Positions 2,812-19,880 of a DNA stretch of 24,483 nt are shown here, in pieces (position 1 is the stretch's first letter; each line of letters begins with the position of its first letter). This DNA comes from a virus: IMG/VR virus record IMGVR_UViG_3300042305_001809, positions 1 to 24,483 of that record; one strand, given 5' to 3'. The notes under the pieces were generated by a model. The model made no database searches. It was given only the letters and a program-made list of their open reading frames with translations, and was not told the origin of the DNA. A program made the translations under genes and the position numbers.

Positions 2812-3870
2812 TTGTCGGTGGACACCGCGCTCGGGGAGATGAACGCCCGCCTGAAGGCCGGCCACCACCGCTGCTGCGTGGAGCGCAGAGGCGCCTCCCT
2901 GCACCTCCGCGCCACCCTCCCCGAGCGCGACAACCCAGCCCGCCGCCGCCAGCAGCGCATCTCCCTTGGACTACCTGCGGACTACTCCGCCCTCCCCGAG
3001 TCCGAGCGCCGCGCCATCGAGCTGAGCCACCAGCTCCGCACCGGCACCTTCACCTGGGCGGCCTGGGACCAGCCAGCCAGCGCCGGCACCCTCACCGTCG
3101 ACGACTTCTGCGCCGCTGCCCGCCGCCTCCACGCCAGCAAGTACCGCACCTCCCCCGAGCGCGGTCAACAGGCGTGGACCAAGAAGTGGGCCCCCGCCCT
3201 GGGCAAGCTCCCGCCCTCAGGGGCGATCACCTCTGCCACCTTGGTCCGGGTCCTCAACCGCATGCCCCCCGGCACTGCCGGCCGCCGAGACCAGGGCAAC
3301 CTCCTGGCCCAGGTGGCCAAGGCCGTCGGCCTGGATCCCGAGCCCGTGCAGGCCGCTGCCCGTGGCTACGGTGCCGCCGCCCTCCGCCCCCGGGACATCC
3401 CCAGCGACACCGCAATCGAGGCGGCCTGGGACTCGCTCCGCCAACCCCACTGGCGCTGGACCTGGGGCATGTGCAGCGCCTTCGGCCTCCGCCCCCACGA
3501 GGTCGTCGAGCTGGAGTGGCTCCCCGAGGACTGGATCCGGGTGGCAGACGCCACCAAGACCGGCAGCCGCCAGGTCACGGCCTGCCCGAGCACCTGGATC
3601 GAGCGCTTCGAGCTGCGCACCCTTCCCCGGCCGACCCAATCGGCCCACACCCTGGCCAAGGTCTTCGGCGATGCCCTGGAGCGGGCCCAGATCACGATCA
3701 AGCCATACAGCCTGAGGCACGCCTATGCCCTGCGACTGATGGACAACGGCGTACCCCCCGAGCTCGGTGCAAGACTCATGGGACACAGCCTGCAGACCCA
3801 CGAGGCCACCTACAAGCGCTGGATGGAGGAGCACCGCATCACCCGGTCCATGGCTGCATTCAACCTGTAG
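2812..3870 (+). CDS. int: Phage tyrosine-recombinase integrase
   Basis: This 352-residue site-specific recombinase joins attP to the host tRNA gene. The N-terminal 100 residues contain a basic AP2-like arm-binding segment, followed by a SAM-like core-binding domain (about 95-180) and the catalytic domain (about 195-345). The catalytic residues are all placed: Arg227 (FGLRPHE), Lys249, Arg302 (SLRHAYA), His325 (MGHS) and nucleophile Tyr334 (TYKRW). One departure is Tyr299 where the usual H-x-x-R box has His. The frame opens at TTG 2812; an ATG at 2839 would remove nine residues, and there is no clear Shine-Dalgarno sequence for either. It lies next to attP and upstream of the excisionase-like gene, the usual integration module. 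Confidence 0.92.
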   Translation: MSVDTALGEMNARLKAGHHRCCVERRGASLHLRATLPERDNPARRRQQRISLGLPADYSALPESERRAIELSHQLRTGTFTWAAWDQPASAGTLTVDDFCAAARRLHASKYRTSPERGQQAWTKKWAPALGKLPPSGAITSATLVRVLNRMPPGTAGRRDQGNLLAQVAKAVGLDPEPVQAAARGYGAAALRPRDIPSDTAIEAAWDSLRQPHWRWTWGMCSAFGLRPHEVVELEWLPEDWIRVADATKTGSRQVTACPSTWIERFELRTLPRPTQSAHTLAKVFGDALERAQITIKPYSLRHAYALRLMDNGVPPELGARLMGHSLQTHEATYKRWMEEHRITRSMAAFNL

Positions 3871-3878
3871 AGGATGCA

Positions 3879-3899
3879 CTAGGATCTATCCAGATCTAG
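3879..3899. promoter_or_regulatory. Imperfect inverted repeat between int and the excisionase-like gene
   Basis: CTAGGATCT (3879-3887) and AGATCTAG (3892-3899) are nearly complementary around a four-base spacer. The element fills the short gap before the TTG start at 3907 and could be an operator or a binding site for the small DNA-binding protein encoded next. Confidence 0.3.
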
Positions 3900-3906
3900 T
3901 TAGACC

Positions 3907-4185
3907 TTGGAAGACGTCCTGAACCGCATCGACGACCTGGAGCGCAAGCTTGATCGCGTCCTCTACGCCTTGAAGACACCCTCCACGAGTGACTGGGTGG
4001 ACTCCAAGGAGTTCTGCCGCCTGGTGGGCCTGGCCGACACCAAAGCCCTCGTCTACCAGATGTCCAAAGGTGTCATCCATGGCGATGCCGTCCGCAACAT
4101 CGGCACAGCCAAGCGCCCTCGGTATCGCTTCCACCGCAAACGGGCTGTTGACCAGTTCCTGAATCGGTCAGGAGTCAGCGGTTGA
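3907..4185 (+). CDS. Small DNA-binding protein, likely excisionase / recombination directionality factor
   Basis: This is a 92-residue protein. Residues 1-25 are a heptad-like helix (short coiled coil). Residues 30-88 form a basic helix-turn-helix or winged-helix segment of the MerR/excisionase kind (SKEFCRLVGL, then VYQMSKGVIHGDAV and RPRYRFHRKRAVDQFL). Size, fold and position directly after integrase are typical of Xis proteins, which bend attachment-site DNA and favour excision. The start is a TTG at 3907 with no visible Shine-Dalgarno sequence; no ATG is available early in the frame. The last 11 bases overlap the convergent small gene on the other strand. It could instead be a lysogeny regulator. 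Confidence 0.6.
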   Translation: MEDVLNRIDDLERKLDRVLYALKTPSTSDWVDSKEFCRLVGLADTKALVYQMSKGVIHGDAVRNIGTAKRPRYRFHRKRAVDQFLNRSGVSG

Positions 4186-4393
4186 TGCCCCGCCAGTAGC
4201 GAGCCTCCGCCTGGTCCCGCCACCGGCCGGCCTGGGCAGCCCGGCTACTCCCCCGAGAGCGTTGCTTGCTCTGCTGCCATTCCGCAAAGAACTCGGCGTC
4301 CTCAACCAGGCGCTGCAGCAGCCCGTTTGGGAGCCGCTGCGCGACCTGATTGAGACGCCGAATGAAGTGGAGCCGGGCCTCTGCCTGGTTCAA
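4175..4393 (-). CDS. Small basic protein coupled to the cyAbrB-like regulator, function unknown
   Basis: This 72-residue protein is helical in its first 40 residues (LHFIRRLNQVAQRLPNGLL, then EDAEFFAEWQQ) with a basic, Arg/Gln/Ser-rich tail. It starts at a TTG that overlaps the stop of the upstream regulator gene by 4 bp, so it is probably translated by coupling as the last gene of the leftward replication operon. Its 3' end overlaps the convergent excisionase-like gene by 11 bp. Small proteins with a similar EDAEFFAEW segment occur in cyanobacteria as far as I recall, but I know no function. A role as partner of the AbrB-type protein is speculation. Confidence 0.5.
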   Translation of the reverse strand: MNQAEARLHFIRRLNQVAQRLPNGLLQRLVEDAEFFAEWQQSKQRSRGSSRAAQAGRWRDQAEARYWRGINR

Positions 4394-4824: not shown

Positions 4825-6774
4825 TTACTTGGCGTCAGCCCAAGTCTCACCAGATGATGCTTCGGCAACAATGGGAACATCGCTGCAGATGCTGTTCCCT
4901 GCATCTTCCATGGCACAAGACAGTCGTTTCTGCCATAGATCGACATGATCAGCTCGAACTTCCATCACGATCTCATCGTGAACCATCGAAATCAGACGAG
5001 CTTCGTCCTCGGGGGTTCTTTCAAGCTGCTGCCATAGCAACGCAATCGCCGTTTTAGCAATATCCCCGGCTGTCCCCTGCACCTGGGTGTTGATCCGCGT
5101 CGTGTACTTGTCGTTGAACCCCGTCAGGATGCGCCGCCGGCCAATGCGAGTGGTCACCGCTTTTGTTGTCTTGTTGCCCTCTTTATCTTGCCACTTTTTA
5201 AGCGTAGGATAAGCTTCACGAAACCCAGTCACAAGCTCCTTAGCTTCAGCGAAGGAAAGATCTACACCGTATTGTGCGACAGCTTGTTTTTGCAATGTCG
5301 CTGCACCAGCTCCATATAAAAGTCCGAAGTTTGAGATCTTCGCAGAAGTCCGCTCTTCTTTCGTCACATCTTCAAACTGTTTACCCGTAATCAAAGCGGC
5401 GGTCTCGGTGTGCAGATCTCGTCCCGCTCGGTAAGCCTCGATCATCCGCTCCTCCCCCGAGAGCTGGGCCGCCACCCGGAGCTCCACCTGGCTGAAGTCA
5501 GCCACCACCAGCCGGTAGCCCTCTGCCGCCCGGAACAGGCGCCGGAACTCCCCCGAGCGCGGAATCTGCTGCAGGTTGGGAGACGCAGCACTGAGCCGCC
5601 CAGTGTCTGTCCCCATCTGGCGGTAGCTCCCGTGGATCCGGCCATCCGGCCCGATCGAGTTGAGCAGCTTCTCCACATGGGAGATCAACGTCATCTGCTT
5701 GTTCCAGGCCAGGTACTCAGCCACCAGAGGGAACTCCCCCTTGATGAACGCCAGCAGGTTCTGATCCATCGACGGCTTCCCCTTGTCATTGGGCCGTAGA
5801 ATCACGCCGGCCTGCTGCAAGCGCAGCGCCATCTGCTGATCCGACCTCGGGTTGAAGCCGGCGTACACCTTGGTGCCCAGGCGGATTGAGCCACTGTCTC
5901 TGGCGTTGGTGTTGAAGCTGCCGTCTTCGTTGCGGGGCAGCCAGGTGCTTGAATCCTCCGGGTTCTTCAGCCGAATCGCCTCATCCAGGTGCTCGAGCAT
6001 GGCCCGCATCTTGACCTGAGCCTCCTGCTCGAGCTTCTGAAGCAGCTGCGCAGCGCCGGCTGCATCAAACCCGAAGCCGTGCCACTGCATCAGAGCGATC
6101 GGCTTGAGGCAGCTCATCTCTAGCTCGAAGATCTGCGTCATGGGCTCGCCCTGGACCTCTGTTGACGCCAACCCCTGCCGCAGCTGCTCCGCGAGGCGCG
6201 GCAACACAATCGCGTCCCGCGCCGCGTACTCCAGCTGCTCCGCGCTGAGCTCACCACTCCAATCAGCCTTCTGCAGCTCCTTGGGCAGCTCCACCGACAA
6301 CTGCCGCTTGGTGATGCTCCCGAGGTCGTTCTTGTTGCCGGTCCCGTTGTTGATCAGCTTCGCCGCAACCATCGTGTCGAACAGCAAGCCCCCGAGATCG
6401 ACCCCCTCCCCCCGCAGGAAGCCCAGGTCAAACGCGGCGTTCTGCAGCACCTTCGGACGCGGCCCCTCCAAGAGCGCCCGGAGCTCCTTCAGCCCCGGCC
6501 ACTCCTCCCAGTCCACCAGCCGCTCGCCCGGCCGCCGCCACCCGTCCAGATCAACCAGCAGGGCCGACGTCGCAGACGCGACCTGGATGAGTCGCACCTG
6601 ATCAGCCCTCGGGTCCAGACCTGTGGTCTCGGTGTCCACCCCGAGGGCGCCCCCCTCTTCCACCAGGCTCTCCAGCTTCTGCAGCAGCGCGTGAGCATCC
6701 TTCGGACCCCTTGCTATTAAAAAGTCAGGAGAATCCAACACTTTGCGATGCTCACTCGGGGAAAAAACAGGCAT
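4825..6774 (-). CDS. Family A DNA polymerase with 3'-5' exonuclease
   Basis: This 649-residue replicative polymerase of the Pol I/T7 type lacks the 5' nuclease domain. The exonuclease occupies about residues 25-205: Exo I VDTETTG (Asp47, Glu49), Exo II NAAFDLGF (Asp116) and Exo III YAARD (Asp187). The polymerase domain has GRLSAASPNLQQIP (392-405), motif A VADFSQVELR (Asp426), motif B RTSAKISNFGLLYG (Arg475, Lys479, Phe483, Tyr487) and motif C MVHDEIVMEV (His599, Asp600, Glu601). Phe483 corresponds to E. coli Phe762. All catalytic residues are present, so proofreading and synthesis should both work. It lies 40 bp downstream of the helicase gene on the same strand, within the replication operon. 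Confidence 0.95.
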   Translation of the reverse strand: MPVFSPSEHRKVLDSPDFLIARGPKDAHALLQKLESLVEEGGALGVDTETTGLDPRADQVRLIQVASATSALLVDLDGWRRPGERLVDWEEWPGLKELRALLEGPRPKVLQNAAFDLGFLRGEGVDLGGLLFDTMVAAKLINNGTGNKNDLGSITKRQLSVELPKELQKADWSGELSAEQLEYAARDAIVLPRLAEQLRQGLASTEVQGEPMTQIFELEMSCLKPIALMQWHGFGFDAAGAAQLLQKLEQEAQVKMRAMLEHLDEAIRLKNPEDSSTWLPRNEDGSFNTNARDSGSIRLGTKVYAGFNPRSDQQMALRLQQAGVILRPNDKGKPSMDQNLLAFIKGEFPLVAEYLAWNKQMTLISHVEKLLNSIGPDGRIHGSYRQMGTDTGRLSAASPNLQQIPRSGEFRRLFRAAEGYRLVVADFSQVELRVAAQLSGEERMIEAYRAGRDLHTETAALITGKQFEDVTKEERTSAKISNFGLLYGAGAATLQKQAVAQYGVDLSFAEAKELVTGFREAYPTLKKWQDKEGNKTTKAVTTRIGRRRILTGFNDKYTTRINTQVQGTAGDIAKTAIALLWQQLERTPEDEARLISMVHDEIVMEVRADHVDLWQKRLSCAMEDAGNSICSDVPIVAEASSGETWADAK

Positions 6775-6814
6775 TCTGGAAAGGTGATGAATCGCTAATG
6801 GACAAGTTCAGAAG

Positions 6815-16888: not shown

Positions 16889-17770
16889 ATGCCCGCCCAC
16901 TCATCCGCCGAGCTCACCACCTACCTCAACGAGGTAGGCCGCTTCCCGGTGTTGACCAAGGAGACCCAGCTGCTCCACTGCCGCCGCATCCACGCCTGGG
17001 TCAACCACCCAGGCGGCCGGGCCGCCGCTCCCCGCCCGCTGGCCCGCGCCGGCCGGCGCTCGATGGACGTGATGCTGCAAACCAACCTCCGCCTGGTGGT
17101 CTCAGTCGCCCGCAAGTACATCGGCCGGGGCCTGGAGCTCCCCGACCTCATCCAGGAGGGCAGCCTCGGCCTCATCCGTGGCCTCGAGCTCTTCGACCCC
17201 ACCCGGGGCTACGCCATCACCACCTACGCCTACTGGTGGATCCGCCAGGCCATCACCCGGGCCATCCACAGCAACGCCCGCACCATCCGCCTGCCGATCA
17301 ACCTGCAGGAGACCCTGGTGCGGATCCGTCGCTTCACCTGGGACTTCCAGCACCAGCACGGCCGGGCCCCCTCCATCTGCGAAACCGCCCAGGGCCTCGA
17401 CGTCACCCCCGAGCGCGTGCAGCAAGTCCTCGCCGCCTCGGACCTCACCTCCTGTGCCTCCCTGGATGTCACCGCCACCGACGACGGGAGCCCCATTGTC
17501 GACCTCATCCCCAACCCGGACGACAACACCAGCAATACCCCCACCCTGGCCCTCCTCGAGCAGGCCGACACCGAGCTCCTCGCCGACGCGCTCTCGGTCC
17601 TCCCCGAGACCGAAGCCTTCATCGTCCACGGCACCGCCTTCGACAACCGCACCATGCAGGACATCGCCGACGAGCTCCAGGTCCCCCGAGCCCGGGTGCA
17701 GCACCTCCGCCACCGCGCCCTCAACCGCCTCCGCCTCTACATGGCCGCCCAGGGTTACCGGCGGGCTTGA
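16889..17770 (+). CDS. Phage-encoded RNA polymerase sigma factor, RpoD-like (group 1/2 type)
   Basis: This 293-residue sigma-70 family factor should redirect host RNA polymerase. Region 1.2 is at residues 6-37 (DNA-facing TTYLNEVGRFPVLT). Region 2 spans 60-137, with core-binding LPDLIQEGSLGLIRGLELFD and the -10 recognition helix YAYWWIRQAITRAI followed by RTIRLP. Region 3 is at about 140-190. Region 4 spans 230-285 (LPETEAFIVHGTA, then TMQDIADELQVPRARVQHLRHRAL), including the -35 recognition helix. It is shorter than host RpoD, with no long N-terminal region 1.1 and no large non-conserved insert, and is nearest in layout to cyanobacterial group 2 sigmas. The start is ATG 16889. Its stop codon overlaps the -35 of the promoter that serves the next gene. 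Confidence 0.93.
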   Translation: MPAHSSAELTTYLNEVGRFPVLTKETQLLHCRRIHAWVNHPGGRAAAPRPLARAGRRSMDVMLQTNLRLVVSVARKYIGRGLELPDLIQEGSLGLIRGLELFDPTRGYAITTYAYWWIRQAITRAIHSNARTIRLPINLQETLVRIRRFTWDFQHQHGRAPSICETAQGLDVTPERVQQVLAASDLTSCASLDVTATDDGSPIVDLIPNPDDNTSNTPTLALLEQADTELLADALSVLPETEAFIVHGTAFDNRTMQDIADELQVPRARVQHLRHRALNRLRLYMAAQGYRRA

Positions 17771-17796
17771 CAGGTTGCATAAAGGCGTGCAAGACT
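17767..17796 (+). promoter_or_regulatory. Promoter overlapping the sigma factor stop codon
   Basis: TTGACA (17767-17772), an 18-bp spacer ending in TGC (17788-17790), and a -10 AAGACT (17791-17796). The layout matches the four promoters of the RNA array downstream. Transcription would start near 17803, 14 bases before the HTH/RHH gene. The -35 contains the TGA of the sigma gene. Confidence 0.55.
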
Positions 17797-17816
17797 TATG
17801 CTTTCATCCGCACCTC

Positions 17817-18203
17817 ATGCCGATCGGTTCCGCCCGCTCGAATGTGACGCTCGAGGAGCTTCGCGCAACCTGCGAGAAGCTTTACGCCCGTGACGGCTTT
17901 GTGAAATGGGCCGATGCCGCCCGGGTCTACGGCATCAGCCGCCAGGCAGTCCACAACAGGTTGAAGGTCGCAGTAGAGAAAGGCGAGCTGGAAGAGGCGA
18001 TCTTCCTGCGCTGGTCCTCCCCAACGTCTCGCGCTGCAGCTTCCCGCACCAACCGCCTCGTCTCCCGAGAGCGGGAAAAGCTCCAGATCCGTGCAACTCT
18101 CTCCGAAGCCAATATCAAGTGGCTTAGAGAGCAATGTGTCATCCGTGGTGTGACGACTGCAGATATAATCAACGGCCTTATTAACAAAGCTCGAAACGAG
18201 TAA
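17817..18203 (+). CDS. DNA-binding protein with HTH and RHH-like ends
   Basis: This 128-residue protein starts at ATG 17817; the open frame before it belongs to a shadow of the sigma gene. Residues 10-55 contain a helix-turn-helix (FVKWADAARVYGISRQAVHN, then RLKVAVEKGEL). Residues 60-88 are a basic linker, and residues 90-128 (KLQIRATLSEANIKWLREQC, then VTTADIINGLINKA) look like a ribbon-helix-helix. Two DNA-binding modules in one small protein suggest a regulator. It lies between the sigma factor and the RNA array and shares their promoter type, so control of the array is plausible but not shown. Confidence 0.65.
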   Translation: MPIGSARSNVTLEELRATCEKLYARDGFVKWADAARVYGISRQAVHNRLKVAVEKGELEEAIFLRWSSPTSRAAASRTNRLVSREREKLQIRATLSEANIKWLREQCVIRGVTTADIINGLINKARNE

Positions 18204-18307
18204 ACACATACACAATATCCCTCATACATATACATTTTCTTGTAGTAGTGGAAGTGTCGTGAGTGTGCTTCGCACTGCTGCGCTCAAGCTGTAGCGCTGC
18301 GCACAGT

Positions 18308-18337
18308 TTGACAGGCTGCCGGATGGTGTGCTACACT
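18308..18337 (+). promoter_or_regulatory. RNA-array promoter A
   Basis: TTGACA (18308-18313), 18-bp spacer ending TGTGC, then TACACT (18332-18337). The expected start is near 18344. The following 55 bases hold the palindrome GTGTGCGCACAC (18345-18356) and a CTCTCC motif (18375-18380) also present in the RNAs of units B and C, so a related short RNA may be made, but no clear closing stem is visible. The sequence just upstream (18204-18245) is an unusually A/T-rich patch. Confidence 0.55.
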
Positions 18338-18403
18338 CGCGCAGGTGTGCGCACACGCGATGCCCGCGTGCGGTTCTCTCCACCTTGGCCAGCGGCCTAG
18401 GGG

Positions 18404-18432
18404 TTGACAGACTGCGGATCTTGTGCAATGCT
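18404..18432 (+). promoter_or_regulatory. RNA-array promoter B
   Basis: TTGACA (18404-18409), 17-bp spacer ending TTGTGC, then AATGCT (18427-18432), giving an extended -10 TGC-AATGCT. A start seven bases after the -10 falls at 18439, exactly on the first paired base of the RNA below. Confidence 0.65.
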
Positions 18433-18438
18433 TGATTC

Positions 18439-18506
18439 ATCGCTGAAGCGAGCCGGCCTGAGCCGTTGCCCCATAGGGGCGGGCTCTCCCTGCCTGCTTC
18501 AGCGAT
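18439..18506 (+). ncRNA. Candidate small RNA B, about 68 nt
   Basis: A perfect 11-bp terminal stem is formed by ATCGCTGAAGC (18439-18449) and GCTTCAGCGAT (18496-18506). Inside, GAGCC (18450-18454) can pair with GGGCTC (18480-18485), and GCCCC-ATA-GGGGC forms a hairpin (18468-18480). The predicted transcript start coincides with the stem base. The internal CTCTCC (18484-18489) is shared with unit C. There is no open frame of note and no T tract, so the 3' end may be made by processing. It is paralogous in layout to unit C, with different bases but preserved pairing in the terminal stem. Confidence 0.6.
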
Positions 18507-18529
18507 CAGCCTGAGCCAATCGGCAAGGG

Positions 18530-18558
18530 TTGACAATCCGGCGGCTCTGTGCAATGCT
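18530..18558 (+). promoter_or_regulatory. RNA-array promoter C
   Basis: TTGACA (18530-18535), 17-bp spacer ending CTGTGC, then AATGCT (18553-18558). The expected start is near 18565, two bases before the terminal stem of the RNA that follows. Confidence 0.65.
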
Positions 18559-18564
18559 GGATTC

Positions 18565-18628
18565 ATCGAACGGGTCAGACCTCGCAGAGCCTAGGCCACA
18601 GGCCAGCTCTCCGTCGGATCCGTTCGGC
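18565..18628 (+). ncRNA. Candidate small RNA C, about 62 nt
   Basis: The terminal stem CGAACGG (18567-18573) pairs with CCGTTCG (18620-18626). Inside, GAGC (18587-18590) pairs with GCTC (18606-18609) and encloses GGCC-ACA-GGCC (18594-18604). CTCTCC (18607-18612) occurs at the same place relative to the 3' stem as in unit B. The stem bases differ completely from unit B while the pairing is kept, which is internal evidence for a conserved RNA shape. The next cassette begins directly after it. Confidence 0.6.
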
Positions 18629-18651
18629 CAATCCAAGCCAATCGGCAAGGG

Positions 18652-18680
18652 TTGACAATCGGCGCCTTGTGTGCCACACT
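18652..18680 (+). promoter_or_regulatory. RNA-array promoter D, leading into the large structured region
   Basis: TTGACA (18652-18657), 17-bp spacer ending TGTGC, then CACACT (18675-18680). The start is expected near 18687, two bases before CGGCC (18689-18693), which can pair with GGCCG (18723-18727). Confidence 0.6.
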
Positions 18681-18686
18681 TGATTC

Positions 18687-19270
18687 ATCGGCCAGGCGAT
18701 CAACCCTGGAGTCATAGGCCACGGCCGTCGATCCACGTACCCCTTCGGGGGGCGAGGGCGCTAGGGCCTGGAATGAGTAGGGAACTGGGCTAGTACCCCA
18801 GTAAGGCGAAACCCCCGACAAGTCGGCCCCACTTTCATGTGGGCAGAAGCCGGTGAGGGGCGGAGTAGTGATCAACCGAAAGGTCCAGGTGGGTGTTGAC
18901 CCTTAATCCGAATGCGGACCCTTCGTAGTGGTGTAGAACGCCCAGCAAAGTAGTGGCTGTCACAAACGTTTCCGTGCGGTAGGTGCAACGTACTACTGCT
19001 CTATGGGGTTGGGCCCATACGGGGAAACGCTTAATAGTGTCCGGCTCTGCTACATCACGCATCCGGCCTGGTTGCTGACATGAGGCAACCAGGGTGCGCA
19101 CAGGCTCTCCTGTCAGCACGCAGCGCAGTGATACTGCGCAACGGTGGCCAGCGTGACCACCGGGCAATGGGCATTCGGCTCTGCCTATCACGCACAAACC
19201 TTCACCCCCAGGCATCCCCCAGGCGCACTGCGTCTGGGGTTGCTTGGCTGTGGAGCTTTGCTCCATCATC
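18687..19270 (+). ncRNA. Candidate giant structured non-coding RNA, about 580 nt
   Basis: No believable protein frame exists here, but perfect hairpins follow one another: CCCC-TTCG-GGGG (18740-18751), ACTGGG/CCCAGT (18784-18802), CCGA/TCGG (18815-18826), CCCAC/GTGGG (18828-18843), GGGT/ACCC (18891-18902), TCCG/CGGA (18907-18918), long-range AGTAGT/ACTACT (18949-18997), TATGGG/CCCATA (19002-19019), the 9-bp CCTGGTTGC/GCAACCAGG (19067-19093), ACAGG/CCTGT (19100-19113), GCGCAGT/ACTGCGC (19123-19139), CGGTGG/CCACCG (19142-19162), a 10-bp stem at 19217-19239 and TGGAGC/GCTCCA (19251-19265). The size, density of hairpins and phage setting recall giant RNAs such as GOLLD and ROOL; I could not match a consensus. 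The 5' end is set by promoter D; the 3' end is a guess, just before the gene at 19293. Confidence 0.6.
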
Positions 19271-19292
19271 CACTCAAGCTTTGGTAAGCATC

Positions 19293-19541
19293 ATGCAACA
19301 GATGGTATTCGTCCGAACTCGCTACATAGGCGAAGGCGGCAAGATTCGCGCTAGCCTTGCCAACACCACGCTTTCGCGGGGTGCAACTAACATCAAATAC
19401 AGCCACAACCTTTCTGTGCCTGATAACCACCTTGTGGCAGCTCGTGCCTGGGTTATCGAACACATGCAGCTGATTGAGAATAAGCCAATCGGCGTTCAGT
19501 CGTATGACAACGGCTATATCTACGCATTCTCTGCTGTCTGA
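19293..19541 (+). CDS. Small conserved-type phage/cyanobacterial protein
   Basis: This 82-residue protein has a beta-rich start (MQQMVFVRTRYIGEGGKIRA), a middle with KYSHNLSVPDNHLVAARAWV and a C-terminal strand (NGYIYAFSAV). Short proteins that begin with a strand containing "R-Y-x-G-x-x-x-K-I-R-A" and go on to "Y-x-H-x-L-x-x-x-x-N-H-x-x-A-A" recur in cyanobacteria and their phages as far as I recall; their function is unknown. It is the first gene after the RNA locus, and the RNA could end in, or act as, its leader. No Shine-Dalgarno sequence is visible. The in-frame region upstream runs through the RNA hairpins and is not coding. Confidence 0.65.
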   Translation: MQQMVFVRTRYIGEGGKIRASLANTTLSRGATNIKYSHNLSVPDNHLVAARAWVIEHMQLIENKPIGVQSYDNGYIYAFSAV

Positions 19542-19563: not shown

Positions 19564-19583
19564 TCTCTCTCTCTCTCTCTCTC
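19564..19583 (+). repeat. (TC)10 microsatellite abutting a start codon
   Basis: Ten perfect TC units directly precede the ATG at 19584. They replace any Shine-Dalgarno sequence. Slippage would change the distance from the upstream gene but not the frame. Confidence 0.95.
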
Positions 19584-19880
19584 ATGACATTCTCTAGCCT
19601 TTGGTTCGAAGGCCGCAACTCGCGGCGCCAGCTCCCTCAGGAGTGCATCATGGATTGCGCCGCCCCTGGCCGCGCTGCAGATGAGTCTGTAGCCCGTTGG
19701 GTCGAACGCCTTCAATTCGACGGCCCCGCGTGGCTGTTCCGCGACTATCTGCGCAGATTCGGCGCATGGAATGAACGTGAGCTTCAGGATCACCACGCCA
19801 ATCGTGAGCGTGTCCTATGGACCTGGGCATGCGATTGCCGGGAGAATCCCGGTGAGTGTGACTACCTCTACCTAGGCTGA
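19584..19880 (+). CDS. Small protein of unknown function following a TC repeat
   Basis: This is a 98-residue protein. The pattern LPQECIMDCAAPGRAADESV (17-36), then WLFRDYLRRFGAWNERELQD and a closing VLWTWACDCRENPG, resembles small uncharacterised proteins of cyanobacteria and their phages: "LPQ... YLxxxGAW... VLWxACxDxxE". Four cysteines are present but not in a classic zinc pattern. The protein is probably helical and cytoplasmic. It is followed one base later by the next start, so they form one translational unit. Function unknown. Confidence 0.6.
   Translation: MTFSSLWFEGRNSRRQLPQECIMDCAAPGRAADESVARWVERLQFDGPAWLFRDYLRRFGAWNERELQDHHANRERVLWTWACDCRENPGECDYLYLG

Follow-up and report, generated by a model that had tools for sequence, protein, structure and literature searches.

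An array of tandem promoters and folded RNAs in a virus record is apparently an undescribed RNA set

Comparison of sequences indicates that a row of folded viral RNAs in IMG/VR virus record IMGVR_UViG_3300042305_001809 is genuine and apparently undescribed. The window, by which we mean the whole stretch of DNA that was analysed (24,483 bases), holds an array of four tandem extended -10 promoters, each ahead of one RNA region (Table 1), and the same array was found in the same place in about 50 IMG/VR records, with 40 non-identical loci including the window. A sequence-only reading had described a single locus at 18687-19270, in which a promoter leads into a long structured non-coding RNA of a possibly new class. 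A structured RNA is predicted there and its promoter is present at 18652-18680, but this promoter is the fourth of four and the feature is larger, the long RNA being the last of an array with three promoters and two structured RNAs upstream (18308-18651). Comparative evidence (covariation, full-length relatives and a broken reading frame) backs a long structured non-coding RNA and also a new class, with no Rfam family matching. Our best explanation, which we hold tentatively, is that the conserved array heads a rightward late-side unit, in which the long RNA (RNA-3) may be a structured leader that is served by cis-acting elements, namely promoter-proximal RNAs and a 3′ switch.

Table 1 Position and supporting evidence of features in and around the array (window coordinates)
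Feature	Position	Strand	Evidence or remark
Extended -10 promoter, fifth copy	17767..17796	+	Pattern match; ahead of small gene 17811-18203
Small gene	17811..18203	+	Helix-turn-helix and ribbon-helix-helix-like by eye
Promoter P0	18308..18337	+	10/12 matches, TG 5′ of -10
RNA-1 region	18338..18403	+	In relatives, short GC-rich hairpin ACGCGCGCACAUCAUGCGCGUUUU conserved after first promoter; weak in window
Promoter P1	18404..18432	+	Pattern match; within direct repeat D1
RNA-2a	18433..18529	+	~68-nt rod, conserved architecture; covariance model 48.2 bits, E 1.3e-8 (rough); fold z -5.1
Promoter P2	18530..18558	+	Pattern match; direct repeat
RNA-2b	18559..18651	+	Covariance model 62.9 bits, E 4e-12 (rough); fold z -4.7
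Promoter P3 of long RNA	18652..18680	+	Pattern match, direct repeat; predicted start near 18687
RNA-3, long structured RNA (type W body and common 3′ module)	18687..19266	+	Relatives; fold z -2.8; ends predicted
Type W body, conserved core	18710..18944	+	84-92% identity to L128 from 18747 onward
RNA-3 variable middle	18945..~19141	+	26-46% identity to L128
Hairpin H1	19142..19162	+	100% paired in 18 sequences; two pairs changed on both sides
Pseudoknot	19151-19156 (H1 loop) with 19188-19193	+	98% paired in 18 sequences; two pairs changed on both sides
Hairpin H2	19169..19186	+	Conserved loop UUCGGCUC; alignment of 18 sequences
Helix T0	19200-19205 with 19250-19255	+	100% paired in 22 sequences; 3/6 pairs changed on both sides
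Terminal hairpin T1/T2	19208..19247	+	6 pairs changed on both sides, 19 distinct sequences
Hairpin T3 (UGGAGC-UUU-GCUCCA)	19251..19265	+	98.5% paired in 22 sequences; 3/6 pairs changed on both sides
Small pre-AUG hairpin	19278..19289	+	4-5 bp stem in 21/22 loci
First downstream gene	19293..19541	+	82 aa, no assigned function; gene here varies among relatives

Relatives were gathered by way of the sigma factor and the end of the long RNA. A scan with the sigma factor led to the phages L003-L018, most of whose sigma factors are 50-55% identical, and by BLASTN the 3′ end of the window RNA is 79-85% conserved at the same position in many of them. An 18-base motif from the terminal hairpin picked out 66 further stretches, of which some 13 are chance matches; pooling with L003-L018 led to the 40 loci. 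L149, a type W motif match, was rejected as a chance match. Other routes returned nothing: the DNA of the window had no match in collections of phages or plasmids, neither the 19293-19541 product nor the primase had a protein relative among phages, genome contigs had no match to the primase, and protein and pattern scans of viral contigs gave none for the promoter repeat, the primase or the genes next to the array.

The window encodes DNA polymerase I, a Dda-like helicase, a primase, an integrase, ThyX, a sigma-70 factor and an endolysin. The virus group is probably the cyanophages, a plausible attribution that the sequence-only reading had already made and that is not proven; it is a fair guess rather than a fact because the top NCBIfam model for the sigma factor, a cyanobacterial RpoD-like family, matches with a score under its curated cut-off. 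Beside the integrase gene (2812-3870), a sequence at 2640-2682 resembles a tRNA 3′ end and is a candidate attachment site that might reveal the host. The thyX homologue of L007 carries what is apparently an intein, a 948-base in-frame insertion (3264-4211) that begins with Cys, ends with HN before Ser and includes a stretch resembling an HNH endonuclease.

The promoters follow TTGACA-N14/15-TGC-NANNCT (pattern TTGACAN{14,15}TGCNANNCT), with five matches in the window versus 0.01 expected by chance. P1 to P3, the last three of the array, are also detectable as a direct repeat, and most related loci have three to four tandem promoters in unchanged order. The small gene at 17811-18203 is found by tblastn at 38-52% in relatives and is kept just 5′ of the RNA array in many of them; its product had no match in Pfam, NCBIfam or PHROG and is possibly a regulator. 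Just 3′ of this gene, an A+T-rich element at 18222-18247 (ACATATACAT...TTTTCT) is kept ahead of the array in about 28 relatives. The window copy of RNA-1 folds no better than shuffles, which is a point against the cis-acting leader.

RNA-2 is present as two paralogues of about 65 nt, RNA-2a and RNA-2b, which differ in sequence and have a common fold. Its covariance model had 31 matches at E<0.001 in related loci, and a negative control of 570 kb taken from other phages gave no match; the window copies were among the building sequences of the model, and their E-values are rough. In the fitted alignment both sides had changed in 25 of 30 pairs, with 133 cells versus 32.5 in shuffles, a covariation that is somewhat inflated because the alignment was fitted to the structure. 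It was much lower once the pairing partners were slid, and single-sequence folds done separately agree with the structure from the fitted alignment. A motif scan found RNA-2 in 26 records, 25 of which also have the 3′ module of RNA-3, the remaining one (L153) ending at a contig edge. Comparative folding, which the sequence-only reading had called for, detected covariation in RNA-2 and in this module alike. A promoter of its own and a GC-rich hairpin at the 3′ end make RNA-2 look like a free-standing RNA, and this too speaks against a cis-acting leader.

Full-length relatives of RNA-3 are present in five records (L101, L114, L128, L129 and L142) at 71-73% identity, and no credible coding sequence was found between the genes at 17811-18203 and 19293. 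Covarying pairs, the lack of a conserved frame and an own promoter, as used to recognize structured non-coding RNAs, were all found. On the + strand the fold of 18687-19270 beats 100 of 100 dinucleotide shuffles, but single-sequence energy alone is weak evidence because the - strand also scores z -2.3. Hairpins that had been singled out as examples differ in their standing: the one at 19217-19239 is conserved, but those at 19067-19093 and 19123-19139 are window-specific because they are located in the unconserved stretch (variable middle, Table 1). A UUCG tetraloop had been noted near 18747; its stem is kept in relatives, but the loop there is GUCU.

The bodies of the long RNA cluster into at least five unrelated types, roughly 390-900 nt long, which occupy one slot before the common 3′ module. 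Type W is found in 6 loci (with the window), A in 7, B in 11 and C in 3 (with two partial), while type D comprises L005 and L014, with partial links to L100 and L016; in L102 and L137 a W-like 5′ segment is fused to an A body. Compared with shuffled alignments, the body alignments score z -8.1 (B), -5.0 (A) and -2.4 (W, a moderate value), and that of type C has no stability excess (z -0.2). The structure of the type W body is less supported than that of RNA-2 or the 3′ module because type W is effectively two lineages. Its core is 84-92% identical to L128, whereas the phage proteins are only 35-68% identical. Strong conservation and exchange of large bodies would be expected of a trans-acting RNA, and therefore count against a purely cis role.

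In the 3′ module, H1, the pseudoknot, H2 and the terminal hairpin are together 97% paired in 18 sequences, and in 8 of the pairs both sides have changed (29 cells versus 7.3). The terminal hairpin is retained even in loci with unrelated upstream parts, and with T3 it folds at z -5.5 in the window. Helices T0 and T3 are mutually exclusive because the 5′ arm of T3 is common to both, and they end about 28 nt 5′ of the start codon of the next gene. The conserved module as a whole reaches about 19289, four bases short of the AUG at 19293, and abuts the AUG whichever gene follows. The terminal hairpin has G-U pairs that are conserved in 18 of 18 and 17 of 18 sequences, and T0 has a U-G pair in 21 of 22. 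In L016 a second copy of the terminal hairpin (6726-6775, CCCCAGGCGUUCUGCGUCUGGGG) precedes a different small ORF, as though this module could be reused as a leader. A CT dinucleotide run at 19567-19583 lies directly 5′ of the gene at 19584 in the window and is possibly phase-variable or a plain low-complexity spacer.

With its end beside the following gene's start codon, RNA-3 could be a leader and not a free-standing transcript. In three larger related records that were read through, the plausible genes 3′ of the array are co-oriented and reach the large terminase (phrog_2, which we take to be terminase) and other large genes, the terminase gene lying about 9-12 kb downstream of the array in the relatives where this was checked; the array therefore appears to head a late-side unit. 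The cis-acting leader is further favored by synteny in the IMG/VR records and the co-occurrence of RNA-2 with the 3′ module, by covariation in RNA-2, whose model had a clean negative control, and in the 3′ module, where it supports both T0 and T3, by long homologues that share no reading frame and whose A, B and W bodies fold better than shuffled alignments, by the absence of a terminator with a U tract in the array region, and by G-U pairs that fit + strand RNA only. A host-type RNA polymerase would start at each array promoter, and the promoter-proximal RNA folds may act on the transcribing enzyme in a put-type manner. The polymerase could then traverse the long untranslated leader and enter the operon, where the choice between T0 and T3 would set the expression level of the downstream genes. 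The conserved body of RNA-3, although part of the leader, would itself have a function as an RNA.

The late region of lambdoid phages offers a parallel, in that the 6S RNA of lambda is a long untranslated leader preceding late genes; the present array differs in being far larger and more structured, with several promoters and a 3′ switch, and no Q gene was recognised. Some evidence weighs against the leader. A plain leader has no obvious need of a core of about 200 nt at such identity, nor of five unrelated large bodies. The boxA of an antitermination complex, which is GAACCTTGAAAA in cyanobacterial rRNA (PMC8461337), was rejected as a feature of the window, being absent from it and from its type W relatives. 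Copies of GAACCTTGAAAA matching at 10-12 of 12 positions do lie inside the long RNA of type D and its partial links (L005, L014, L016 and L100, with 11-12 of 12 in the first three and 12 of 12 in L014), and their sequence suggests Nus-type antitermination there.

A close rival to the cis-acting leader, and only somewhat less probable, is that RNA-3 together with RNA-2 is a free-standing, abundant RNA acting in trans (in the way of GOLLD or ROOL, as an RNA-only assembly or scaffold, or by binding a host component), its proximity to the next gene being incidental. This would account for a body conserved far beyond the proteins and for one promoter per RNA. It accords less well with a 3′ module that borders on an AUG and comprises two exclusive helices and a hairpin at the start site, with the lack of a U-tract terminator, or with the searches for known families. 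The sequence-only reading had proposed a distant relative of GOLLD or ROOL, and the Rfam search for GOLLD, ROOL and HEARO that it called for went against this: with Rfam 15 the window had no match at E<=1, 18200-19300 had no more than sub-threshold chance matches at E<=10 and nine relatives had nothing relevant at E<=2, and the GOLLD, ROOL, HEARO and OLE covariance models matched neither the window nor these nine relatives. Membership in GOLLD, ROOL or HEARO is unsupported because the families give no match. GOLLD forms an RNA-only nanocage, is more highly expressed at lysis, and often lies near or contains phage tRNAs; no tRNA was found in the window or in the loci of 13 relatives. Size and phage context do resemble those of both families. 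ROOL is of the same size class (about 580-660 nt), phage-borne and pseudoknotted, and RNA-3 differs from it in having no model match, no tRNAs nearby and several unrelated bodies per slot. Phages have few large structured RNAs, and what these do is poorly understood (PMC12286853). In GOLLD the 3′ region is conserved and the 5′ region variable (PMC12286853), a division that RNA-3 shares. RNA-3 is, however, shorter than GOLLD, without a model match or tRNA cluster, set within an array of promoters and RNAs, and ends beside an AUG. In a more specific and slightly more doubtful form of the trans reading, the array would be a modular phage RNA family, in which bodies are swapped like cassettes between constant promoters and a pseudoknotted 3′ module and act in trans with the small paralogous RNAs, perhaps as GOLLD- or ROOL-like assemblies or as decoys matched to hosts.

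It is rather unlikely that the array, and RNA-2 in particular, serves mainly to modify the polymerase by put-like antitermination, with RNA-3 a passive leader. The putL site of HK022 is about 70 nt long with two stem-loops just 3′ of its promoter (PMC9378689), and RNA-2, of about 65-75 nt, likewise has two adjacent stem-loops a few nucleotides from its start site, where a long phage unit begins, and before a long untranslated stretch. By analogy, antitermination is a candidate role for RNA-2; its fold differs in detail from put, without a shown sequence relation, RNA-2 is followed by another promoter, and the RNA-3 bodies are themselves conserved and structured. It is very improbable that the inverted repeats work at the DNA level, be it as an origin of replication or as a site for packaging or recombination: they are dense, lie in a gene-free stretch and adjoin replication genes, but the conserved G-U pairs fit RNA of one strand only, the same strand as the tandem promoters, and therefore count against it. 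A protein, encoded by the antisense 144-aa frame at 18835-19269 or a + frame from 19080, can practically be dismissed, since the antisense frame, although open in the window, was rejected as a gene on account of stops in all five full-length type W relatives and frame-breaking indels, and the earlier view that 18687-19270 holds no credible gene stands.

The array suggests that RNA elements can make up the head of an operon on the late side of a phage genome. It is an RNA set not listed so far, in which about 50 natural copies can be compared, with tandem promoters, a constant 3′ end behind an exchangeable body, and conserved, mutually exclusive helices beside a start codon. The promoters, the switch and the body swaps offer direct handles on the function of such RNAs.
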